Below are positions 1 through 64,000 of a stretch of 64,000 bases of DNA, piece after piece. This stretch comes from an uncultured Clostridia bacterium (GTDB lineage Bacteria; Bacillota; Clostridia; UBA1381). Every line of letters begins with the position of its first letter. Position 1 is the first letter of the stretch. The DNA is taken from contig CANRKO010000007.1 of NCBI GenBank assembly GCA_947631235.1, positions 46,414-110,413 of the forward strand, given 5' to 3'. The notes beneath the pieces were generated by a model that did not search any database, was not told the DNA's origin, and saw only the letters and a list, made by a program, of their open reading frames with translations. A program made the translations under genes and the position numbers.

Positions 1-524
1 CCGAGAAAAACGACATTGGGATTTTGATTTGTCTGTACACAGGCTTGCGTATCGGCGAGTTATGCGCGCTGAAATGGAGTGATATTGACTTTGCGGCGGG
101 ACAAATGCACATAAACGGAACGCAGTCGCGTATTAACGGAGAATTGAAAATAACACCGCCGAAAAGTAAAGCGTCCAAGCGGTCGTTTCCGATCCCCGAT
201 GTTCTTATGGAAAAGTTGAAAAAGCACGAAAATTACAGCGAGTTTGTTCTGTCAAATCACGGCGGAATGGTCGAGGTCAGAGCGTACCGCCGAAGATTTA
301 AGGAATTGCTTAAACTTGCGGGATTGCCCGACATAAAATTTCACGCGCTGCGCCATACGTTTTCAAGCCGAGCGTTGGAGGTTGGTATGGACTATAAAAC
401 GCTGAGCGAGATTTTAGGCCATGCTTCGGTTTCGATTACAATGGATTTATACGTCCATTCGCTTGACGAGCATAAAAAAGCGCAGATGAACAAGCTCAAC
501 AGCCTGTATTCGCCGTCGGAATAA
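1..524 (+). CDS. Tyrosine recombinase/phage-type integrase, 3' part only
   Basis: Catalytic C-terminal half of a tyrosine recombinase; the reading frame is open to the left edge (codons from base 3), so the gene starts outside the window. The visible catalytic-box residues are Arg in TGLRIGEL, the HALRH box, and LGHASVSITMDLYVHS, whose Tyr is the nucleophile that would form the 3'-phosphotyrosine link. The family excises and integrates phages, ICEs and genomic islands. Nothing else of an integrative element is visible to the left. The 3' end is intact, with a normal stop, and a hairpin terminator follows at 538. The family call is firm; which element it serves is unknown. Confidence 0.9.
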   Translation, partial: EKNDIGILICLYTGLRIGELCALKWSDIDFAAGQMHINGTQSRINGELKITPPKSKASKRSFPIPDVLMEKLKKHENYSEFVLSNHGGMVEVRAYRRRFKELLKLAGLPDIKFHALRHTFSSRALEVGMDYKTLSEILGHASVSITMDLYVHSLDEHKKAQMNKLNSLYSPSE

Positions 525-537
525 TCCGTCGGACTTG

Positions 538-575
538 GCGGAACATTCGGTAAATTCGGGTGTTCCGCTTGTTTT
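538..575 (+). terminator. Rho-independent terminator of the integrase
   Basis: Stem GCGGAACA / TGTTCCGC (538-545 with 561-568) followed by TTGTTTTG. A second hairpin, GAAAC-ttttt-GTTTC with GTCC/GGAC flanks, lies at about 577-600 and may add to it. Confidence 0.7.
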
Positions 576-685
576 GTCCCGAAACTTTTTGTTTCAGGAC
601 AATGGGCGGGTAGCTTAGTTATTATGCAGATTTTGGTTGTGTGTTATACGCGAATAACGGAGAATAAAAGAAAGGGGACTATCCT

Positions 686-3600
686 ATGAAAAAACGATTT
701 ATAAGTTTATTGTTGTCGCTGTCGATGTTGGTTTCTATTATTCCGACGGCATTTGCTGATGAAATCGAACCTGATAACTCTGTGCAAAACAACGAGAACC
801 GTGTTGAGGCAACGGAACCGGCACCAGTTGAAACGCTATCGCCGGACGAAGCGAATGAAGCGGCAGAGGCAACATCTGAACCGATTGAAACAGCTTCGCC
901 AAGCGTTGAAGCAGAAACACCGGAAGCAACGCCTGCGGAATCGATTACGGCTTCGGATGATGATAGTATTGGGGAGATAGACACATCTATTCAACTTATG
1001 GCAACAGGCACATACTATCCTGAGTATGGATTTTATTTTGATGAAAACAGTGGAACAATAACTGATGCTGATGAAGATATTTCAGGGTTTTTAAATATTC
1101 CTGAAACAACCAGTGGTAAGCCTGTTACTAAAATCAGTAACTATGCATTTCAAGATTGCAAATCACTTACTGGTCTAAATATTCCTAAGGCTGTTACCAA
1201 TATAGGCAATAGTGCATTTCAAAATTGCACAAATCTTTCTGAGGTTACACTGAATTATAATAATACCAGAGAATTTGAATGTTCAATAGGAAATTATGCT
1301 TTCAGTGGCTGTACCAGCCTAAAAAACCTTACAATTCCTGATAGTATAACATATTTAGGAGAACACTTTATAGAAAACACAGCAATAGAGAGCATAACCG
1401 TTCCTAAAAGTATAAAAAGTGTTGGAGCATATTATGGTGGTCCATTTGCAGAGTGTACTACGCTTTCGCATATAACGATAGAGAACGGTATAACTGCTCT
1501 ACCAAATAACCTTTTTGATGGTGCTACCTATATAACAAACATCACAATACCCGAATCAGTAACGAGTATAGGACATTCTGCTTTTTTGAATTGTACAAAT
1601 CTCAAAAAAATAGATATCCCCAAAGAGGTTAAAAGCATAGGCAATAGTGCATTTCAAAACTGTACAAATTTTTCAGAGGTTACACTGAATTATAATAATG
1701 CCAGAGAGTTTGAATGCTCGATAGGGAATTATGCTTTCAGTGGCTGTACCAGTTTAAAGAATCTTACTATTCCTGATAGTATAACATATTTAGGAGAACA
1801 CTTTATAGAAAATACAGCAATAGAGAGCATAACCGTTCCTAAAAGTATAAAAAGTGTTGGAGCATATTATGGTGGTCCATTTGCGGAGTGTACTACGCTT
1901 TCGCATATAACGATAGAGAATGGTATAACTGCTTTGCCAAATAACTTTTTTGATGGTGCTACTTATATAACAAACATCACAATACCCGAATCAGTAACGA
2001 GTATAGGACATTCTGCTTTTTTGAATTGTACAAATCTTAAAAAAATAGATATCCCCAAAGCGGTTAAAAGCATAGGCAATAGTGCATTTCAAAATTGCAC
2101 AAATCTTTCTGAGGTTACACTGAATTATAATAATGCCAGAGAATTTGAATGTTCAATAGGAAATTATGCTTTCAGTGGCTGTACCAGCCTAAAAAATCTT
2201 ATAATTCCTGATAGTATAACATATTTAGGAGAACACTTTATAGAAAATACAGCAATAGAAAGCATAACTGTTCCTAAAAGTATAAAAAGTGTTGGAGCAT
2301 ATTATGGCGGTCCATTTGCAGAGTGCACCGCACTTTCACATATAACGATAGAGAACGGTATGACTGCTCTACCAAATAACCTTTTTGATGGTGCTACTTA
2401 TATAACAAACATCACAATACCCGAATCAGTAACGAGTATAGGACATTCTGCTTTTTTGAATTGTACAAATCTTGAAAAAATAGATATCCCCAAAAATGTT
2501 TCTGTAATTAACACCAGTGCTTTTCAGGCTTGCTCAAATCTGTCACAAGTAACTCTACATTACAATAATGCACGTGAATTTGAACTTAAGATTTACGATT
2601 ATGCGTTTAATGGATGCTCAAAATTAACTGAATTGATTTTGCCTGAGAGCGTGACTTACTTAGGACATCATTTTACGGCTGGAACTGCAATTAGCAATAT
2701 TACAATACCGAAAAGCATAAAAAGTGTAGGCGAATATTATGGTGGACCTTTTTCCGGAAATATTAATTTGACGTATGTAACTTTAGAAGATGGTATGACA
2801 GCAATCCCTGCAAATCTGTTGAATTATTACCAAAATCCAAGTTACGTGGAAAATGTGACAATTCCAAGCAGCATAACCGACATAGGAGCGCGCGCTTTCG
2901 AGGATTGTGACGCAATAACCGCAGTAGATATTCCTAAAGGGGTTAAAAGTATAGGTCAGGGAGCATTTCAAAATTGTAATAACTTAACTAATGTTATTTT
3001 TCATGAGAATAATGAGGAAGGGTTTGAATTAAAAATATATGATACAGTATTTCAAGGCTGCTCAAAATTGTCCAAGTTGAATTTGCCGGACACAGTAACC
3101 TATTTAGGTCATCATATGATACAAGGTACATCTATAAGCAGCATAACTGTCCCCAAAAGCGTAACCGGCGTTGGGGCTAATTATGGCGGTCCTTTTGCGG
3201 GCGCAGTATATTTGGATGACATTATATTTGAAGACGGCACTACTGCAATATTTGATTATGAATGTGAGAGCAATTCGGATATGAGCTATATTTCAAGAAT
3301 AGAAATTCCGGCTACTGTTACCAAGATAGGAAGGGGTGCATTTAAAAACTGCACAAAGTTAAAATCTATTAATATTCCCGACAGCGTTCAAACGATCAGT
3401 GATGAGGCATTTTATAATTGTCCTCAACTGAATGTAAGCATAAGTGAATACGCTCCTGCTATTGCTGACTTGATAGATGATGATATAAGGTTCTTTCTTT
3501 CAAAAGAAATAACATCTTATAATCATTTTACATACAGTAATACAGATTATTACTCAAAAGCAAACGAAATGACTGGTTATGTACCGTTTGAATTGAAGTA

Positions 3601-6960: not shown

Positions 6961-7794
6961 GCACAAAAAATTTATTTTTCAAAAAAACTTTAAACAAATC
7001 GGTTGTTATTTTCATATTTCTATCGTTTATGAAGTGAAGGGGCAAAAAGGGTTTGGGTTTCCCCAAGTAAATCAAATTTTTGTAAGTGTGTACACGCTTG
7101 CTGTGCTTGCTATTCTCTAAAATAGCAGGCATAAGCAAATTTTTGTAAGTGTGGCTACGCTTGCTGTGCTTGCTTCACTACAAAAATATGATGATTTCTC
7201 TATATAGGTAAAAAAATCTAAAAAAATTTTTAAAAAAGTCATTATTTTTCAATTTTTATTTGTTACTTATAATAGAAGGGAAAAAATACCAACTTCTTTA
7301 ACCATTGCTAATAAAGGGAGGATATCTATTAACAACGGGAAAAGTATAAATAATTTTTCTGAAAATGGTTGTTATTTTGCACTTTCAAACGTTCACAAAT
7401 TAGGGAGGTAAAAATCAAAGACCAACAGCGATATTATTCGATATGAGCGCGTTTAAAGAAAATACGCTTATATGCTCTAATGCCGCACTTGATTGACAAC
7501 TGAATATTCCATTCATCAAATACGTTCTTTCCGAACAAGAGCCGCTATTGCGGGCGCGCCACGACGCTGTATAGCCGAGCGATCAAGCCTTCAATGAAAT
7601 ACCGGATTTGCCGCCGGCACGGTCATGACTGCTCGGAAAGCATAATGATACTCCTGCCTTGAACTCGTCACTGAATTGGGCGGCCGGCGCGGATGCGGCG
7701 GAGGTGAAACTCCTGTGAGGTCGATTGGCTCTCGACCGTTTGATGAATTATTAATGGGGGTAGTAAAATTTTTCAAAGGAGGACAAGTGTATAC
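6961..7794. other. Gene-poor region between the IS200 element and tnpW
   Basis: No convincing full gene. Contents: two 39-bp direct repeats (7073-7174); an AT-rich stretch to about 7310; a Shine-Dalgarno GGGAGG at 7316-7321 followed 6 nt later by an ATT codon that opens a 27-codon frame (7328-7411, stop TAA); a second GGGAGG at 7403-7408 overlapping that stop; then a GC-richer stretch (7420-7740) interrupted by stops in every frame, with a GGTCGA/TCGACC hairpin at 7719-7737. This looks like decayed accessory DNA upstream of tnpW. Confidence 0.5.
7073..7174 (+). repeat. Pair of 39-bp direct repeats
   Basis: CAAATTTTTGTAAGTGTG...ACGCTTGCTGTGCTTGCT occurs at 7073-7111 and 7136-7174 with a difference only in three central bases (TAC versus GCT). 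Period 63 bp. Too few copies and too unequal in spacing for CRISPR. Function unknown. Confidence 0.8.
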
Positions 7795-51002: not shown

Positions 51003-51036
51003 AAAGGAGCGCGGTCGTTACGGCTGCGCCCCTTTT
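51003..51036. terminator. Hairpin between convergent genes
   Basis: AAAGGAGCGC / GCGCCCCTTTT with a 13-nt loop, immediately after the exported-protein gene and inside the end of the SLOG gene. Confidence 0.5.
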
Positions 51037-51488
51037 GTATCATACAAGTTTATGACATGTTTTTTCTTTTTAACCGCCAATTCATAAAACTTCGCCGCAC
51101 CGCCGTAAGAACGACTTATGTACGTGATAACATAATCGGAATTATCAATAAGCCACCTATTGCGCCGGTCTATTGCAAATTTAGGCGGAACATTCTCCAA
51201 GCCGTCGGGATATATTGTGTCCGAATAATCTTTTCCGTCCGCCCCTGTCGGCATATATGCGAGGACAACAGCATAATTTATATGCGGATATTTTACTTTA
51301 AGTTTTTTAAGTGTATTTCGCACCATACTATCAAAGCCGCCTTGATTTCCGACATAAAAAGAGTCAACAGATTTATTTTCAATCAAATCGGTTATTGTCC
51401 GTTCCAGCTTATCCGATATTTCGCTCGGAGTATCGCGGTGTCCGAAAAAACAGCAGGTATTTTTATTCATAAAACGTTCTTTCCCCAT
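51018..51488 (-). CDS. SLOG-fold protein (DUF1273-like)
   Basis: 156 residues. CCFFGHRDTPSEI at the N-terminus, DSFYVGNQGGFDSMV (nucleotide-binding Gly loop), VLAYMPTG, DRRNRWLIDNSDYVITYI and GGAAKFYELAVKKKKHVINLYD fit the SLOG/YspA superfamily of nucleotide-sugar or NAD-derived second-messenger sensors. SLOG proteins are frequent in defence and mobile loci. No partner effector is adjacent. Start could also be the ATG at 51470. Confidence 0.82.
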   Translation of the reverse strand: MGKERFMNKNTCCFFGHRDTPSEISDKLERTITDLIENKSVDSFYVGNQGGFDSMVRNTLKKLKVKYPHINYAVVLAYMPTGADGKDYSDTIYPDGLENVPPKFAIDRRNRWLIDNSDYVITYISRSYGGAAKFYELAVKKKKHVINLYDTKGAQP

Positions 51489-53659: not shown

Positions 53660-53851
53660 TTGAAAGACACCAATTATTATTTTATGACAAGACGTATCGG
53701 CTCGACATTGTACAGAGTAAAGATATATCTTGCCGAAAAGGGAACGGAAACAATGAGCGACAAAATTTTTCGGGTAATTTCAAATCATCCGTTGGCAAAC
53801 GACAAAAGATGTGGTATAATGGATTTACCGCAAATGAGCCGTTCAGCCTGA
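53660..53851 (+). CDS. tnpW: TnpW-like transposon protein, 63 aa
   Basis: Starts at TTG 53660 (GAGAGGAGAG 8 nt before) with MTRRIGSTLYRVKIYLAEKG and ETMSDKIFRVI following a short N-terminus; ATG 53681 is an alternative start. Same pattern as the TnpW at 7795. Its TGA stop (53849-53851) directly abuts the ribosome site of the recombinase, so the two genes are likely translated in coupled fashion. Confidence 0.85.
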   Translation: MKDTNYYFMTRRIGSTLYRVKIYLAEKGTETMSDKIFRVISNHPLANDKRCGIMDLPQMSRSA

Positions 53852-53862
53852 AAGGAGTCATT

Positions 53863-55671
53863 ATGATGAATAACAGGCAGACGGAAGAAAGGATAACAGC
53901 TTTATATGAGCGTCTGTCAAGAGACGACGGCGTTTTGGAAGAAAGCAACAGTATCACAAACCAGAAGGCATTACTCGAAAAGTACGCAAGCGAAAACGGT
54001 TTTTCCAATATCGCCCACTATACCGACGACGGATATTCCGGCGGTAATTTTGAAAGACCGAGCTGGAAGCGGCTAATTTCCGATATTGAGGACGGTAAGG
54101 TCGGAACGGTTATCGCTAAGGATATGAGCCGAATAGGACGTGAATATTTGCAGACGGGTTTTTATACGGAAATTCTGTTCAGACAAAACAATGTGCGTTT
54201 TATCGCAATATCCAACGGCGTTGACAGTAATATCGCGGGAAGCAGTGAATTTGCGCCGTTTCTGAATATTATGAACGAGTGGTATATTCGGGATTGCAGC
54301 CGCAAAACAATGCTTTCATATCAAGCAAGAAGCGATGCCGGACAACCGATAACCTGCAATGTTCCTTACGGATACAAGAAAGATCCCGAAGACAAGCATC
54401 ACTGGATTGTTGATGAAGAAGCGGCGGCGATTGTGCGCAGAATGTTTAATATGACTGTCGAAGGTAAAAGTCCGGGACAAATAGCGAGAATATTTCTAAA
54501 AGAAAAAATTGAGCGTCCGTCAGTTTACTCTGCACGCACAAGGAAAGGCGAAGAGTACATATCCGGTGAAAGTGAACCGTATGCTTGGCAGACAAGCACA
54601 ATTATACGGATTTTATCAAAACCGGAATATATCGGTCATACGGTAAACTTTAGAACGCGCAAAAAACATTACAAGGATAAACATCCTTCCCCGATTCCAT
54701 ATGAAGATTGGGTAATTATCGAAAATACACACGAGCCTATTATAGACAAAGAAACCTTTGATCTTGTTCAGAAGCTGCGTGAAACAACGCGGCGTGCTCC
54801 GCACGACAACGGCGAAGCAAACCCTCTGACGGGACTTGTCTATTGTGCCGACTGCGGAGCGAAAATGTATAATCACCGAGCGAGGACGGGACACTGGAAG
54901 GGCGAGCGCAAGGTAGATCCCGAAACGGGACTGTTCCCGCACGACCATTACGACTGCTCGACTTACTATCTAACAAAATGTAAGGGAAACGTCAAATGCT
55001 CCGGACATTATATAAACACTATTGCGCTCCGTGAGTTGATTTTGGAAACAATAAAACTAACGAGCCAATACGCGATAGCGAACAAAGACGAGTTTATACA
55101 AAAAGTCCGCGAGGCTTCAGAGATAAAACAGTCGGAGGATTTAAAGGCTTACGATAAGCAATTAAAGCGTGACAAGAAACGCTGCTCGGAACTGGACGGA
55201 ATAATCAAAAAACTTTATGAGTCCTATGCAACAGGAAAAATCCCCGAAAAGCGCTTTGATATATTATCCGCCGAGTATGAAAAGGAACAGGCAGAACTTG
55301 AAAAGACCATAGTCGAAGCGCAGATACAGATTGATAGGTTTAAAGCGGACACATACAACGCTGACGCATTCTTGGAGCTTGCGGAGCGATACACGAAATT
55401 CGAGATGCTGACAACGCCGATGATAAATGAATTTATTGATAAAATCGTTGTTCATGCACCCGACAAATCAACAGGCGAGCGAATACAGGACGTTGATATT
55501 TATCTTAAATTTGTCGGCAAACTTGATATTCCAATTCCCGAACCCACTCCCGAAGAATTAGCGGAACAGGAAAAAGTGCGGCTACAAAGGCAGAAACAGC
55601 GCGAAGCTAATCAACGGTTCAGAGAGAAACAAAAACGCCTTGAGCTTGAGGCGATACAACAAGCAACTTAA
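53863..55671 (+). CDS. Large serine recombinase (TnpX-like)
   Basis: 602 residues from ATG 53863 (AAAGGAG). Catalytic Ser19 in ALYERLSRDDG, IAKDMSRIGREYLQTG, then recombinase domain (KSPGQIARIFLKEKIE...WQTSTIIRILSKPEYIGH), zinc ribbon CADCGAKMYNHRA with CSTYYLTKCKGNVKCSGHYI, coiled coil (KAYDKQLKRDKKRCSEL...) and a Gln/Lys/Glu-rich tail. It moves the surrounding element. The gene appears intact. Confidence 0.95.
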   Translation: MMNNRQTEERITALYERLSRDDGVLEESNSITNQKALLEKYASENGFSNIAHYTDDGYSGGNFERPSWKRLISDIEDGKVGTVIAKDMSRIGREYLQTGFYTEILFRQNNVRFIAISNGVDSNIAGSSEFAPFLNIMNEWYIRDCSRKTMLSYQARSDAGQPITCNVPYGYKKDPEDKHHWIVDEEAAAIVRRMFNMTVEGKSPGQIARIFLKEKIERPSVYSARTRKGEEYISGESEPYAWQTSTIIRILSKPEYIGHTVNFRTRKKHYKDKHPSPIPYEDWVIIENTHEPIIDKETFDLVQKLRETTRRAPHDNGEANPLTGLVYCADCGAKMYNHRARTGHWKGERKVDPETGLFPHDHYDCSTYYLTKCKGNVKCSGHYINTIALRELILETIKLTSQYAIANKDEFIQKVREASEIKQSEDLKAYDKQLKRDKKRCSELDGIIKKLYESYATGKIPEKRFDILSAEYEKEQAELEKTIVEAQIQIDRFKADTYNADAFLELAERYTKFEMLTTPMINEFIDKIVVHAPDKSTGERIQDVDIYLKFVGKLDIPIPEPTPEELAEQEKVRLQRQKQREANQRFREKQKRLELEAIQQAT

Positions 55672-55679
55672 AGAGCGGA

Positions 55680-55711
55680 GCGGCTTATGAGTAATTGTAA
55701 GCCGCTTTATT
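55680..55711 (+). terminator. Terminator after the second recombinase
   Basis: GCGGCTTA / TAAGCCGC (55680-55687 with 55698-55705), followed by TTTATTT. Confidence 0.8.
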
Positions 55712-55751
55712 TACATCATATGGTAGAATAATCGTATTAGGAGTGAAGATT

Positions 55752-56954
55752 ATGGATGATTTCAAATGGATACGTTCAGATATGGATTTATTTTATATAG
55801 ATAAAGATAGTAAGAATACTATTACTATATCTAATAGTGGTCAGCTAGATAGAGATTTCTATTTGTATGCAAAGAACTTTTTTTATGCAGCTGAATATGT
55901 AATTCATTATTTATTAGAAGATGCTGCTGAACAGCAAGATATAGCCAAATTAGATTTATGGTATTTTGCAATAATTTATTTGTATAGACAGAGCCTTGAA
56001 TTGCTGTTAAAAGCAATTATTTTTCAATATACAACCGACAATATAGAAAGAAAGTCTATTGTTGGCAAAATAAGGCATGATTTAAAACAAGCTCTTGATA
56101 AAATATTTGAATTAAAACCGTCTATAGTATGTGATAACCATAATATACAGTGGCTTATAAAATATTTGTCTGATATTTCACGCATTGACAGAGAATCAGA
56201 TATGTTTAGATATCCTTTTGGAAATAATCTAAAAAGCTTATTTGAGAATCAGACGCATATTTCCTTATTTGCTACTCACGATAATATGAATAAAGCCTAT
56301 AATATTATCAAAGCAATTTACAATTCTGGAGATTATTCAAATCAAATATATAAAGCGCACTCTCCTCAATTGATAATTGAGGGAGGTCCATATTATCAAC
56401 AAAGTGTAGTGGGCTATAGTTATGCACATCATTCTTTTTATCCGTATTATTCATCATATGAACAAGTAGGAAATTTTTTAAAAGATATTATTATCACACA
56501 TAATAAGCCAAATCTATTTATGCCTATGTGTTATTCATATAGAAATGCAATTGAACTTGGATTGAAACGGATAATTGTTGAAGATAGTCATATAGAGCGC
56601 ACAAAAGCATTAAAGATAATGCAGAAAAAAAAGCATAGTATCCTTGGACTTTGGAATAGCATTTCTGAAGAAATTAAAGAATATTCAAATGCTCCAGATG
56701 ATGATACGACTATAGATGATGCACAGAAGTACATACAAGTTTTTCATAATTTTGATGTGCACTCAGATTTGTTTAGATATCCGTGTGATAAATATCTGAA
56801 TACTTATTTTATTGATAATACAAAGGTTGATATTAACAATATATCAAACTGCTTTGAAGAATTATGTAATTTTTTAGATGCTGTTGATAGTATGTTCATT
56901 GAGATTAAAGATTACGAGTCAGAAATGATTTCATATTATTCGGATTATTATTAA
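55752..56954 (+). CDS. HEPN-like protein with internal duplication (cargo)
   Basis: 400 residues from ATG 55752 (AGGAG 9 nt upstream). Two copies of one ~100-residue pattern: IIYLYRQSLELLLKAII, then RHDL, then SDMFRYP (about 77-167); CYSYRNAIELGLKRIIV, then KKHSIL, then SDLFRYP (about 260-356). Spacing between these landmarks is 26-27 and 43-46 residues in both copies. The ELxLK-HDL-RYP pattern is that of HEPN-like helical proteins. Strongly AT-rich, with many rare codons, unlike the flanking relaxase and recombinase. HEPN proteins are often RNases in defence; function here is inference. Confidence 0.68.
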   Translation: MDDFKWIRSDMDLFYIDKDSKNTITISNSGQLDRDFYLYAKNFFYAAEYVIHYLLEDAAEQQDIAKLDLWYFAIIYLYRQSLELLLKAIIFQYTTDNIERKSIVGKIRHDLKQALDKIFELKPSIVCDNHNIQWLIKYLSDISRIDRESDMFRYPFGNNLKSLFENQTHISLFATHDNMNKAYNIIKAIYNSGDYSNQIYKAHSPQLIIEGGPYYQQSVVGYSYAHHSFYPYYSSYEQVGNFLKDIIITHNKPNLFMPMCYSYRNAIELGLKRIIVEDSHIERTKALKIMQKKKHSILGLWNSISEEIKEYSNAPDDDTTIDDAQKYIQVFHNFDVHSDLFRYPCDKYLNTYFIDNTKVDINNISNCFEELCNFLDAVDSMFIEIKDYESEMISYYSDYY

Positions 56955-56982
56955 TGGTCTTAAAATTTAAGATAAGTGGCTA

Positions 56983-57026
56983 AAGTAACTGTTTATAGCA
57001 ATAAATATAAAAACAGTTACTTTTTT
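56983..57026 (+). terminator. Terminator after the HEPN-like gene
   Basis: AAGTAACTGTTT ... AAACAGTTACTT then TTTTTG. Confidence 0.85.
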
Positions 57027-57043
57027 GTTAGGAGGATTTTATT

Positions 57044-57244
57044 ATGACAGCGAATGAGAAAAAGCTAATACAGGCAAGGCACAGGCTCGAAGAAGTCGAA
57101 GCGCGAGATAGAGTTAAGGAGCGTAAAGCTCGGACAAGGCGGCTAATTCAAGAGGGCGCTGTCTTGGAAAAGGTTTTACCGAGTATCACAGTGATTGAGA
57201 TTGACAATTTAGAGAATTACTTACGAAGTAATTTACGGCAGTAA
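57044..57244 (+). CDS. DUF3847-type small protein
   Basis: 66 residues, an Arg/Lys/Glu-rich coiled helix (EKKLIQARHRLEEVEARDRVK, KARTRRLIQEGAVLEKVLP). Ribosome site AGGAGG, 7 nt spacing. DUF3847 genes sit next to MobA/MobL relaxases on clostridial mobile elements and may assist relaxosome assembly, but this is not proven. Confidence 0.85.
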   Translation: MTANEKKLIQARHRLEEVEARDRVKERKARTRRLIQEGAVLEKVLPSITVIEIDNLENYLRSNLRQ

Positions 57245-57630
57245 TGTCAATGGGGCGTTCCGAGCAATCGGAACGCTCTTATTTTTATCCCCGAAGGGCG
57301 CACTTACTCACCACTTGCCGTAGGCAAGCGGTGGTACTGCTCGCCGTTGGCGGCAGTCATGCGCTCCTGCGGAGGGCGGCAGATAATCAGAAACGTGATT
57401 ATCTGCTATGGCGGCAACCTTGCTTTTCACAAGAATTGAAACAACAGACTTGTTTCAATTTGGTATAAGGAGTTTCCTTATACTTGCCGCCTTTGCGAAA
57501 AACTGTGGAGCAGTCTTTCGCAAGATGGACGCTTGTTTACGCAACAATCGCCCATTTTCTTTTTTCATAAAAAGAAACAAAAACGTGGGGTGTCATCTTG
57601 CTACCCCATTCGGAAGGGACGGTGAAGAAT
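57245..57630 (+). other. Highly structured region before the relaxase; candidate oriT
   Basis: Six hairpins in a row: GCGTTCCGA-TCGGAACGC with a T-run (57255-57286, a terminator); CTTGCC-gta-GGCAAG in CCA/TGG (57311-57334); CAGATAATCA-TGATTATCTG (57380-57405); AATTGAAACA-TGTTTCAATT (57434-57460); TATAAGGA-TCCTTATA (57464-57482); TTGCGAAA-TTTCGCAA with nested ACTG/CAGT (57493-57523). Short ORFs here are not convincing. MobQ-type oriT sites have such inverted repeats beside the relaxase gene. Confidence 0.6.
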
Positions 57631-59331
57631 ATGGCAATTTATCATTTTGAAGCTAAGGTTATCACGCGCGGAACAGGGCGCTCCGTTGTCGCCGCGTCCG
57701 CGTATGCGTCGTGCAGTCAGATCTACAACGATTATGACGGTGTTCAACACGACTATACCCGTAAGCAGGGCTGCGTTTACAGCGAAATATTTTTGCCGAC
57801 GAACGCTCCGACGGAATGGCAAGACCGTGCCGAATTATGGAACGCAGTCGAAGCCGCCGAAAAATCCAAAGACAGCAGACTGGCGCGTGAGCTGATTGTC
57901 GCGTTGCCTATTGAAGTCGGTCTTGACGGATGGAAATCTATATTGAAGAACTTTGTTCAAGAGCAATGCGTTGATAAAGGAATGTGCGCCGACGTAAGTA
58001 TTCATAATACCGACGGACATAATCCTCACGCTCATATTCTCTTGACCGTTCGCCCGCTTGATGAAAAAGGCAAGTGGCAGGCTAAGACGCAGAAAGAATA
58101 TCTTTGCAAGCGCGGTGATGAAGAACGCGGATTTACCGCAACCGAATTTAAGACGGCGCAAGCCGACGGCTGGGAGAAGCAGTATCAATATTTTGTCGGT
58201 AAGAAGAAAGTTTATATGACACCTTCTGAAGCTGAACGGAGTGGGTATGAGCGAGCGTCTAAAAATCCGAAAAGCACGCGTTTTGGCAGACAAAACCCGA
58301 TATGTGCCGAGTGGAACAGTGAGGAACAGATTTTGAGTTTCCGTAAAGCGTGGGAGGAAGCGGTCAACAAATCTTTGGAGCAGAAAAATATTGACGCCCG
58401 CATTGACTGCCGCAGTTTCGCGGACAGAGGTATAGACGAACAACCGACAATCCACGAGGGTGTGACCGCACGTATTATTGAACAGCGTGGCGGTGTTTCC
58501 GACCGCTGCGAATTAAATAGGCAAATCCGAAAGGATAATGTATTACTGCGACAGTTAAAATCGTTAGTCAAGTCGCTTACGGAAGCGGCAAAAGAGGTTG
58601 TTTCCGTAATAGCCGAAAATTTAGAAAAGTGCCGTGAAAAGTCAATTTTCTCACTATATGAACTCAAACATAACGAAAAATTGTCAGCCGATATTCAGCA
58701 CAGCAACACAGTAACAGACTTATTACTGTCGAGGTTCAATAGTGTCAAGAAACAAATTTCACAGAAAAGCTCTAAGGCAAAAAAGCTGCGAGCGGAAAAA
58801 GACGGTCTGAACGTCGTAAATGTATTCAAGCGCAAACAATTATCCGAACAGATTGAAACCCTGCAAGAGGAAGTCGATGAATTGAAAACGGAAAAAGCGG
58901 TACTTCTTTCAGATATGAAATGTGAAACCGAGGAAGATGTGTCAAACATCAAGAAACAGTGCGAACAAAACGACGTATATCTTAAAAATATATCTGCGCG
59001 CAATGCACAGCTCGCCGAGCAAATTAAGACGGATATATTTGATTTCAAAGCGACTATTGCCGATATTTCGCCCGAAGATATACCTGTCATTCAAGAGGAA
59101 CGAAGCAATTTCCGTGATACGATGAAATCGCTATGGACGAAAATCCAACAGCAGTACGGCTATCGCAGTAATTACGATTTACTGAAAGCCGCTAAAGATG
59201 AAATTGATATGGGATTGGGCGAATATCAGCCACATATCAGGAAATCCATCCGCAAGGATTTGGAGCAAAAACGCCGCCAAGCCGACGAACAGCAACGTCA
59301 CCGCAAGCGGCGTGATGAGTGGGAACGGTAG
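57631..59331 (+). CDS. MobA/MobL (MobQ) relaxase
   Basis: 566 residues from ATG 57631 (preceded by GGTGAAG). Relaxase domain about 1-200: MAIYHFEAKVITRGTGRSVV with Tyr4, the likely nucleophile; HNTDGHNPHAHILLTVRPL is the HUH-type metal motif; EWQDRAELWNAVEAAEKSKDS is motif of the MobL family. Then long coiled coils (about 300-480). It nicks oriT and pilots single-stranded DNA into a recipient using a helper transfer system. No coupling or type IV secretion genes are present, so the element can be mobilised but not self-transmitted. Confidence 0.92.
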   Translation: MAIYHFEAKVITRGTGRSVVAASAYASCSQIYNDYDGVQHDYTRKQGCVYSEIFLPTNAPTEWQDRAELWNAVEAAEKSKDSRLARELIVALPIEVGLDGWKSILKNFVQEQCVDKGMCADVSIHNTDGHNPHAHILLTVRPLDEKGKWQAKTQKEYLCKRGDEERGFTATEFKTAQADGWEKQYQYFVGKKKVYMTPSEAERSGYERASKNPKSTRFGRQNPICAEWNSEEQILSFRKAWEEAVNKSLEQKNIDARIDCRSFADRGIDEQPTIHEGVTARIIEQRGGVSDRCELNRQIRKDNVLLRQLKSLVKSLTEAAKEVVSVIAENLEKCREKSIFSLYELKHNEKLSADIQHSNTVTDLLLSRFNSVKKQISQKSSKAKKLRAEKDGLNVVNVFKRKQLSEQIETLQEEVDELKTEKAVLLSDMKCETEEDVSNIKKQCEQNDVYLKNISARNAQLAEQIKTDIFDFKATIADISPEDIPVIQEERSNFRDTMKSLWTKIQQQYGYRSNYDLLKAAKDEIDMGLGEYQPHIRKSIRKDLEQKRRQADEQQRHRKRRDEWER

Positions 59332-62500: not shown

Positions 62501-63655
62501 CTCACTTACCTCTGTAGAGCTGCTCCAATTATTTGAAAGTGTCCACGAGGAGGAATTTGTTGTAGCATTAGAAATGGTTTGCGCTATCGTCTTTGCTTGT
62601 GTATCGCTAATTGTGTCACTATCGGTTTTGGAAACAGTAGTAATTATACCGTTTGCACATTGCAGCCTAAGTGTTGTAAATAAAGGCACATTTGTAATTT
62701 CACCTATTTCGTATGTAAATAGTATTAATCCGCTTTCCGAATCCTCGCAAATAATCGGGTCTGCAAGCTGTTTTACCGCTTCCGCCTTATTTCTGTTACT
62801 TGCCCAGTTTGCATAAAGCGTCATATTGCCGGATGTGCCTACGGGAATAGAATCCCATATCTTTCCGTCTTTGTCAGACCAACCGACAAATGTATATTTA
62901 TCAAGCGCGGGCTTCGGCAGTACGCTACCGGTTCCGGTTGTATAGCTTATAGGTGACTGCGGAATCATATCACTGGCGAACTGTACGGTAAAGTTTACTA
63001 TTTCCCAATGAGCATAAAGTGTCTTATTCCCGTTTGTACCCGGTGTAATTTCCGTTACTCTTTCACCGCCGCTTTGAGATGTGTACCAGCCGAGAAAGTT
63101 GTATCCGTCTACTATTAAATCCTGCAGCACCAAACCATCTTGCGCAAAGTAATAAGAAGGATTTGGGTTTTCAATGCTGATTGACTGCAAGTAATTATCG
63201 TTGTTTGCAATATAATAATTTATCGAATATTGGTCCTTTAATTTTATTTCCTGCGCCTCGCAATTCGGAAGTTGATTTTCGTTCCACCACATTACTTTTG
63301 CATAAGCCGCGTTTTCATCAGCATTGACTTTTATGTTGCCGGTGTTAGGTGAGTACATCTTAAGCGAATTTAATTTCCCGTTGCCGGTATAAAAGGCGAC
63401 ATAGATTTTGCCGTCGTTAAATTGATTTGCCGTAAGAGTAGCACTGTTTCCACCAATTTGGACAACAACGCTATTGCCCGCATTTTCCGTTAATCCTATA
63501 TCTGTTTTTGTAGAATCCATGGGCGCTGCGGACGTAGTTTCGACTATTACCTGTGCTTCATCGGCAGTATATTCTTCCGCCAATACAGAAGTGCCTACAG
63601 CCAAATATACCATTGCCAAAATAAGCATAACAGATAAAAACTTCTTTTTCTTCAT
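59522..63655 (-). CDS. Very large secreted surface protein with InlB, LRR and GLUG repeats
   Basis: 1377 residues from ATG 63655 (GAGAGGAAGG before it); the frame opens at 63673. Signal peptide (FLSVMLILAMVYLAVGTSVLA). Order: shared module near 70-140 (YVAFYTGNGKLNSLKMYS...AKVMWWNEN); two Listeria-Bacteroides/InlB repeats (about 150-290); a 350-residue Ser/Thr/Asn-rich region (SSSWTLSNNWSSSTEVS, SQSNSTSQSSSVSNAVS) unlike any domain I know; a BspA LRR block (about 740-800); a beta-helix-like stretch; then GLUG-type repeats (about 1150-1300: GGVVGYNDYGTVSHCYNTGS and variants, six or so). No anchor motif is visible. Probable adhesin, possibly phase-variable. Confidence 0.82.
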   Translation of the reverse strand: MKKKKFLSVMLILAMVYLAVGTSVLAEEYTADEAQVIVETTSAAPMDSTKTDIGLTENAGNSVVVQIGGNSATLTANQFNDGKIYVAFYTGNGKLNSLKMYSPNTGNIKVNADENAAYAKVMWWNENQLPNCEAQEIKLKDQYSINYYIANNDNYLQSISIENPNPSYYFAQDGLVLQDLIVDGYNFLGWYTSQSGGERVTEITPGTNGNKTLYAHWEIVNFTVQFASDMIPQSPISYTTGTGSVLPKPALDKYTFVGWSDKDGKIWDSIPVGTSGNMTLYANWASNRNKAEAVKQLADPIICEDSESGLILFTYEIGEITNVPLFTTLRLQCANGIITTVSKTDSDTISDTQAKTIAQTISNATTNSSSWTLSNNWSSSTEVSESYLDQTGQTREEAETLAKSESGSYNLTNSNGGSNGSTDTLSGSYKLSGNNSHSDSSTVETGQNFELSVDAKYSSEVSGKVALEGIAEVGGKTGFEIGAGAGYGNNIKHTNTGTDAASISADIAKQKSNTTTNSKTWNSSMGYSQSNSTSQSSSVSNAVSKIISKQYGYGSSYAEGGSNSSSQALATTDTKSDEYSSTVTYYTSHVSSTTESFSSTGQTHGDYRMVMAGTVHVFAVVGYDVANKAYFVYTYNVLDDETSEYLDYSFDGTFNDYETSIIPFEIPYFVNEYVNSRIAKTEGLQLDPDTGIIENYFPDEENPDGIVIIPSYISVDNGDGTSRSVKVKGIAPGLFKDNTDIVAVRLGDFITEIPDSTFEGCSSLQYVISPGVTKIGNNAFNGCTSLMEFTLPEDITYLGDNAFESAPSIKAEASNVDVATAAASSGANNIVLDISSVPDSEITNTAFNVGEIESFELQGKDKEYKGISVKSDAKTTVINGIKFVDCTNIPMEISSEDVTLNRVSANARSFALILGGSNVNVKLNQNINLTSSKGNAVLCKNITLSPLNSNVVGKMTLTGDLYTIDPVGGEKYLTFNSGEIKYITEEEYESFAFAPAIAVWDGTATEPEYDASTKTYTITSGSELVWISNVVNGTITDGTNFPTDITFKGYTVELAEDIYLNNTSDWQNWSDTNAPTNSWVPIGNDDDFPFNGTFNGNNHEVFGLYLVTYQHYCGLFGYIGSYATLKNVGVSESYISSDNINGGVVGYNDYGTVSHCYNTGSVNGRSKLYAYAGGVVGYNCGGTVSYCFNTGFVNGSGSDNGGVVGCNVLSGAISYCYNTGSVSNSGFATGGVVGNTSGGTVSYCYNIGDVSGSDVVGGVVGHNYADATVSYCYNIGDVSSSDRVGGIVGSNECLKIYDNVPEENPTIKYCYATQSTLYNNYSNEYKHTIPTITSVLQRTAEQMKSLSNLPGFSTSDWAVDANINDGYPYLIALKDTY

Positions 63656-63694
63656 TAGTATCCTTCCTCTCAAAGTTTTTTACAATGATTAATT

Positions 63695-63949
63695 TGCAAC
63701 ATAATACCGATTATGTGGTATTAACATGCATCAAGGTGGATTTCTTGAAAATAAAAGTGATACGCCAATAGACCAATGAGCGACATAGGTATAACATTGG
63801 TCTGATAATTATGTGCTTTTTGTACTTTTTTGTATTTTTGTGCTTTTTTCTCTGAAAATCATTGACCATCTCTAATGATTATGATATAATTTATATGTAT
63901 TTTTTGAAATATAACAGCGCATCTACCACATAATCGGTATTATGTGGTA
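63695..63949. promoter_or_regulatory. Inverted 26-bp sites around a promoter; candidate invertible switch
   Basis: Right copy TACCACATAAT-cggt-ATTATGTGGTA (63924-63949) is an 11-bp-arm palindrome with an asymmetric 4-bp core. Left copy TGCAACATAAT-accg-ATTATGTGGTA (63695-63720) is its reverse complement with 24 of 26 bases identical. Cores CGGT and ACCG show opposite orientation. Alternatively two operator sites for one dimeric regulator. Confidence 0.6.
63862..63890 (+). promoter_or_regulatory. Sigma-A promoter pointing away from the surface gene
   Basis: TTGACC (63862-63867), 17-nt spacer, TATAAT (63885-63890). It reads to the right, out of the window, through the right-hand palindrome. 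The surface gene, on the minus strand, has no comparable promoter in its first 200 bp. Confidence 0.75.
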
Positions 63950-64000
63950 AAGCAATGCAACAATCTCATTCGTTCAATCTGACGACGATGTACTTCGCCT

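Follow-up and report, generated by a model that had tools for sequence, protein, structure and literature searches.

We found that the end of the window (the whole 64,000-nucleotide stretch of DNA analysed here, from an uncultured Clostridia bacterium) carries what is, as judged from sequence, very probably a promoter inverton, that is, a phase-variation switch, with its own recombinase and in the OFF orientation as assembled. We put the probability of this reading at about 0.9. Both sites and the segment between them lie within the last 310 bases of the window (Table 1). An invertible promoter before the gene of a surface protein had been proposed in the first-pass annotation, and the proposal is now supported by an abutting recombinase gene, by 105 relatives with matched inverted site cores, by segments that are inverted between relatives, and by a promoter-like sequence that faces in the OFF direction.

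In the proposed mechanism, the tyrosine recombinase would act on both sites, exchanging strands within a 6-bp core (T-ACCG-A here) and inverting the 203-bp segment between sites 1 and 2. In the ON orientation the promoter would drive the surface-protein gene, with transcription starting about 90 nt before the ATG of that gene; in the OFF orientation it would not drive the gene and would read antisense into the recombinase gene.

Table 1. Features of the predicted switch and its target gene, in window coordinates.
Feature	Position	Strand	Details
Predicted target gene, 1377 aa	59522-63655	-	ATG at 63655; signal-peptide-like start (by eye); List_Bact_rpt (Flg_new), LRR_5 and GLUG matches
Ribosome-binding-site-like AGAGGAAGG before the ATG	63662-63670	-	direct reading
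Recombination site 1 (target-gene side)	63695-63720	+	TGCAACATAAT-ACCG-ATTATGTGGTA; homology with site 2 reaches 63688; direct reading
Predicted invertible segment, 203 bp	63721-63923		homologous to, and in the same orientation as, the segment of L053
Promoter-like TTGACC-17-TATAAT, facing the recombinase (OFF)	63862-63890	+	after inversion the -10 would lie at 63754-63759, minus strand
Recombination site 2 (recombinase side), inverted copy of site 1	63924-63949	-	perfect 11-bp arms; homology reaches 63956; contig C5 starts at 63924
Tyrosine recombinase gene, 3' end	63940-64000	-	stop codon 63940-63942 inside site 2; last 19 codons 63943-63999; rest at C5:20-865, minus

Sites, promoter-like sequence and predicted target gene

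Direct reading confirmed the initial observation of two inverted 26-bp sites, identical at 24 of 26 positions and spaced 203 bp apart. The 22 nt around the core are identical between the two, and their arms are 88% complementary over 33 nt. Within the last 400 bp, the highest inverted-repeat score was 22, compared to a maximum of 14 in 1000 first-order Markov shuffles. The pattern ACATAATNNNNATTATGT had two exact matches in the window, namely sites 1 and 2, and two further places matched with 2 mismatches (0.38 expected at up to 2 mismatches). The mirrored 11-bp arms that had been ascribed to each site are perfect in site 2, whereas site 1, read directly, matches at only 9 of 11 positions.

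These inverted repeats flank an intergenic segment, and the promoter-like sequence within it would point toward the gene in just one of the two orientations, which is, at the level of sequence, the arrangement of a promoter inverton. TTGACC-17-TATAAT agrees with the consensus at 11 of 12 positions, has a TG before the -10 and reads rightward, while the best promoter-like match toward the surface gene reaches only 9 of 12. This agrees with the earlier description of a near-consensus promoter facing away from a gene that now has no good promoter of its own, and mirroring the segment places the -10 where the first-pass annotation had expected it after inversion. Scoring with hand-set sigma-A weights (threshold 12) gave 14.8 toward the recombinase and 7.5 toward the gene, and the module was classed as OFF. 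Between 63500 and 64000 there were 3 promoter-like matches against a shuffle mean of 2.8; since the number is not raised, the case rests on the quality of TTGACC-17-TATAAT. No intrinsic terminator was found at the window's own sites in 63500-64000. Of the known structured RNAs (Rfam, gathering thresholds), a tRNA and a pemK element were the sole matches in the window, each distant from the switch; the pemK match lies at 7642-7718 and scores 58.9 bits, the gathering score being 34.8.

A surface role is predicted for the 1377-aa protein from the List_Bact_rpt, LRR_5 and GLUG domains given in Table 1. Further to the left, the gene of a YpsA/SLOG protein (51018-51488) has just to its right genes that encode a large serine recombinase at 53809-55671, a protein with a HEPN domain at 55743-56954 and, at 57598-59331, a MobA/MobL relaxase, and the stretch 53809-59331 is probably an integrated mobilizable element whose end adjoins the gene predicted to be controlled by the switch.

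An abutting tyrosine recombinase gene and a contig break at the site

According to the first-pass annotation, no recombinase gene lay beside the switch, and an invertase gene was to be looked for just beyond base 64000. We found that a tyrosine recombinase gene does in fact reach into the window, its 3' end occupying the last bases. The window corresponds to C7:46414-110413, and contig C7 ends at the same base as the window itself, and the last 77 bases recur exactly at contig C5, where positions 17-865 (minus strand) encode a 282-aa tyrosine recombinase. Its assignment follows from a Phage_integrase match (PF00589, E 4.6e-27, profile above cut-off) together with a conserved R-K-H-R-H-Y set: R137, K161, H224, R227, H250 and Y259, which we take to be the catalytic residues, with Y259 as the nucleophile, are invariant across 9 aligned family members. 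The profile also matches XerA/XerC-like and XerD structures. Identity as XerA, XerD or XerC was rejected, with scores below the NCBIfam equivalog cut-offs (133.6 vs 220, 124.5 vs 329.6 and 108.6 vs 335.15, respectively), as was a FimB/FimE-type DNA invertase (PRK09870; 37.8 against an NCBIfam subfamily cut-off of 221). One weak terminator-like match (L012:227-239) falls inside the recombinase gene, on its antisense strand; the scan that gave it yielded 2 matches versus 1.1 in shuffled sequence.

The start of C5 coincides exactly with the inner edge of identity between sites 1 and 2. Seven pairs among the 32 contig ends of this genome, C7-C5 included, share an overlap of exactly 77 bp, and exact overlaps of this length are the mark of an assembly graph with k = 77. 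A branch of the graph would be expected at the site edge if the reads carried both orientations, and from the position of the break we infer that both were present in the sequenced population. Strain variation could also have caused the break, and its location would then be a coincidence. Across the family, contigs ended 0-4 bp past the 18-bp site in 7 of 139 loci against an expectation of 0.22, a rough upper bound for which all contigs were set at the shortest size (3,123 bp) and taken as independent. Such breaks suggest that assemblies may betray active switches even without reads.

These observations also bear on the idea that the switch family is real but that this particular copy is frozen, locked OFF. 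The assembly holds the OFF orientation only, two arm matches have been lost in site 1, and OFF dominates the family by 76 to 19, all of which a frozen copy would accommodate; we nevertheless consider it very unlikely, given that the recombinase frame is intact with its conserved residues kept, that no difference separates the sites in the 22 nt around the core, and that the contig breaks at the exact site edge.

Besides this recombinase, the same genome encodes two closely related paralogues, with 63% and 60% identity to it, and three more distant paralogues (27-29%). Beside the paralogue on contig C2 the layout of the window module is repeated, with two sites and a gene for a GLUG protein. 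The contig of the C1 paralogue starts at a site, for whose partner no exact match was found in this assembly. It had been considered at the outset that the palindromes might recur genome-wide without inversion, but the close matches in the genome proved to be these two recombinase-linked modules, on C1 and C2.

Paired sites with matched cores across the family

Relatives were sought in 100 related genomes, in GTDB species genomes (at least 589 confirmed, of which the best 80 were used) and in IMG/VR (16 used). This gave 153 loci, 57 of the matches from the related-genome search, those of the source genome included, and 96 from GTDB and IMG/VR; removal of 14 duplicates (identical 300-bp gene piece) left 139 distinct loci, with near-identical copies still among them. 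Sites were searched for by their arms only (ACATAA-N6-TTATGT), with the core left free, and the resulting set supersedes a choice of loci by inverted-repeat score, since that score includes the core.

A site was present at -30 to +130 of the recombinase stop codon in 121 of the 136 loci with a stop codon, compared to 1 of 136 and 2 of 106 in control windows of equal width inside the gene and at +1200 to +1360. In 105 of the 121 loci a partner site lay within 560 bp, and the 6-bp cores of these pairs were identical in inverted orientation in every case and in direct orientation in none (in 2000 shuffles of partners, 2.25 pairs matched on average and at most 9). Near-palindromic sites around a promoter-like sequence could also be read as transcription-factor operators on a segment that stays uninverted. 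We regard that as highly improbable: 68 distinct cores occur among the 105 loci, yet all 105 pairs match, always inverted; the sites are placed where a tyrosine recombinase gene ends; and segments are inverted between relatives, as described below.

Most of the 16 partnerless sites lie close to the end of a contig, within 160 bp in 12 loci (the site on C5, whose partner is on C7, among them) and at 321 bp in one; L092, L180 and L185 have a site and more than 2 kb of sequence, with the partner absent. As to the 15 of 136 loci without a site, L230, L233 and L236 end at the stop codon, L183, L234 and L235 have inverted repeats with diverged arms, and in nine no site was found, the match stopping before query residue 265 in four of these (L082, L097, L103 and L104). 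A third site upstream of the recombinase was matched only loosely, within about 300 bp in 9 of 136 loci and at inconsistent positions. In L072 the recombinase stop is followed by two tandem sites, right after which the contig ends. Both halves of a CAACT...AGTTG dyad precede the recombinase in 11 of 137 loci versus none in one shuffle each; the dyad spans the recombinase promoter region in L069, L099, L146 and others, and is possibly an operator.

Record titles of the loci in related genomes point to animal guts, those of ruminants and rabbits among them, and in a genome of the same genus (G004) one contig matches a goat-gut record across the segment and its flanks; the source is therefore likely to be a gut Clostridia bacterium. 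Cultured commensals are among the carriers of the module, for instance Blautia sp. MSJ-9 (L222) and Oscillibacter sp. 1-3 (L205). Family members also occur on viral contigs (IMG/VR), and in one genome (G029) the segments of three modules, L089, L091 and L093, measure 131 bp and lie beside frames some of which encode DUF2800 proteins. Prophages may thus be among the carriers of the switch.

Promoter direction and inversion between relatives

Promoter-like sequences scoring at least 12 were found in 84 of the 105 segments, compared to 2.3% of Markov shuffles, and the median distance from the -10 to the site that it faces was 43 bp. The direction was OFF (toward the recombinase) in 76, ON (toward the next gene) in 19 and unclear in 10; the window module is outside these 105, being split over two contigs. 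Loci selected by an inverted-repeat score, which includes the core, gave 28 OFF, 10 ON and 3 unclear of 41, and 78, 20 and 10 of 108, counts that those of the arms-only set supersede. Among the unclear cases, L066, L068 and L145 have segments of 353-387 bp between the arms with strong promoter-like sequences pointing outward both ways, and a flip there would swap promoters and not turn the target off.

A comparison of relatives for both orientations had been recommended in the initial reading, and it found them. Among the segments of 115 loci, a set that counts in duplicates as well as the window, 41 pairs were alike; the segment was inverted relative to the recombinase in 7 of these and collinear in 34, of which 8 were the same or identical DNA fetched twice. 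In L069/L075 the inverted segment is 79% identical over 233 bp and both flanks are collinear, the target-side flank having been compared over only about 40 bp, limited by the contig end. Similarly, L224/L237 have an inverted segment (70.5% over 241 bp) between two collinear flanks. The segments of the window and of its nearest relative, L053, lie in the same orientation.

The excess of OFF may reflect a cost of expression, or antisense transcription that stabilises OFF via the recombinase. If the latter, a stronger excess would be expected where no T-rich stretch follows the site. Such a stretch follows the site on the recombinase side in 50 of 105 loci and on the target side in 8 of 105, and the OFF/ON counts were 41/14 with it and 35/5 without it (p = 0.19). 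That the inversion is real and yet serves mainly to control the recombinase, either through antisense transcription or because transcripts end at the site, and not the surface gene, is hardly credible: the promoter-like sequence does face the recombinase 3' end in 76 of 105 segments and T-rich stretches do favour that side, but signal-peptide-like starts are enriched among the targets (57 of 99 first downstream frames vs 34 of 189 control frames, by our own heuristic), a T-rich stretch would terminate antisense transcripts, the OFF bias does not differ significantly with its presence, and the window's own site has no terminator-like match in the stretch scanned.

Apparent portability and range of predicted target genes

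Because some copies have only the recombinase and the switch in common, with different targets, the unit appears to move as a cassette. L184 and L189, from the same genome, are homologous over a stretch that begins 56 bp ahead of the recombinase start and ends 32 bp beyond site B; for L064 and L156 the corresponding limits are 38 bp ahead and 7 bp beyond; elsewhere between the loci of each pair no homology was found except for the sites themselves. In L057 and L058 (same genome), the common recombinase-plus-switch unit extends from 40 bp before to 5 bp past (93%), and the target genes have a later 316-bp stretch in common as well (87%). The window and L053 are 74-75% identical in recombinase and segment and have no target flank in common. 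A more far-reaching, and in our view doubtful, idea is that of a self-biasing portable cassette of about 1.2 kb (recombinase, site, promoter, site) that is set before new genes and in which OFF antisense transcription stabilises OFF, which would explain the ratio of 76:19. In genome G037, the three modules L057, L058 and L060 have one identical site core, and their sites might recombine between modules, exchanging target genes.

A Pfam scan of the targets covered the window protein and 75 of the 99 frames, cut to 460 aa. Among the 25 commonest of 76 families, matches were found to LRR_5 (8), GLUG (7), Flg_new (4), GGDEF (4), SPFH (3), response regulator (3), helicase-type domains (3), DUF2800 (2) and others. 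The three helicase-type matches are to ResIII/DEAD/helicase models. In L061, L079 and L106 the module precedes a helicase-like protein with an ATP-binding-type TGTGKS motif, which is possibly a phase-variable defence or DNA-processing gene.

The rule that emerges, a site at the recombinase stop codon with a matched inverted partner about 130-500 bp further on, makes the predicted switch, its ON/OFF state and its target readable from the assembled genomes of uncultured gut Clostridia. The genes predicted to be phase-variable in this way include surface proteins and also GGDEF proteins, response regulators, helicases and prophage-type genes.

Relation to known systems

Switches of this kind, promoter invertons with tyrosine recombinases, have been described before. 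The one in the window is probably akin to a group of Clostridia invertons published in 2025, inverton group 139, in which inverted repeats have a tyrosine-type recombinase (invertase group 35) within 5 kb of nearly all members (PMC11892184). The two have in common their occurrence in Clostridia, the inverted repeats and a nearby tyrosine-type recombinase, and we liken them by the arm and gap lengths of one example, that of Clostridium sp. D5, which by its coordinates has 26-bp arms and a 205-bp gap, compared to 26 and 203 in the window (PMC11892184). The orientation ratio of the D5 example changed between passages (PMC11892184). A stop codon within the site, core matching and apparent cassette portability characterise the window family, and the available part of that paper makes no mention of them for group 139 (PMC11892184). 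We do not claim that stop-codon coupling and portability are unpublished, the literature covered being open-licence PMC papers.

The ipuS element of uropathogenic E. coli (ipuS/ipuA-ipuB) resembles the window module as a promoter-bearing invertible element near tyrosine recombinase genes that drives a surface adhesin (PMC6083910). It differs in belonging to another bacterial phylum and in being acted on by four shared recombinases (PMC6083910). In addition, and again set against the ipuS system, the window recombinase falls far under the cut-offs of FimB/FimE-type models.

The RecV switches of Clostridioides difficile are like the window module in their occurrence in Clostridia, their tyrosine recombinase family, their short inverted repeats and their link to surface phase variation (PMC5903667, PMC7446863). 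A 2018 paper emphasised that the gene of a recombinase may lie at a distance from its site, and that several unrelated repeats are acted on by RecV (PMC5903667). Unlike in the RecV system, each module of the window type has its own recombinase, whose gene abuts the site.
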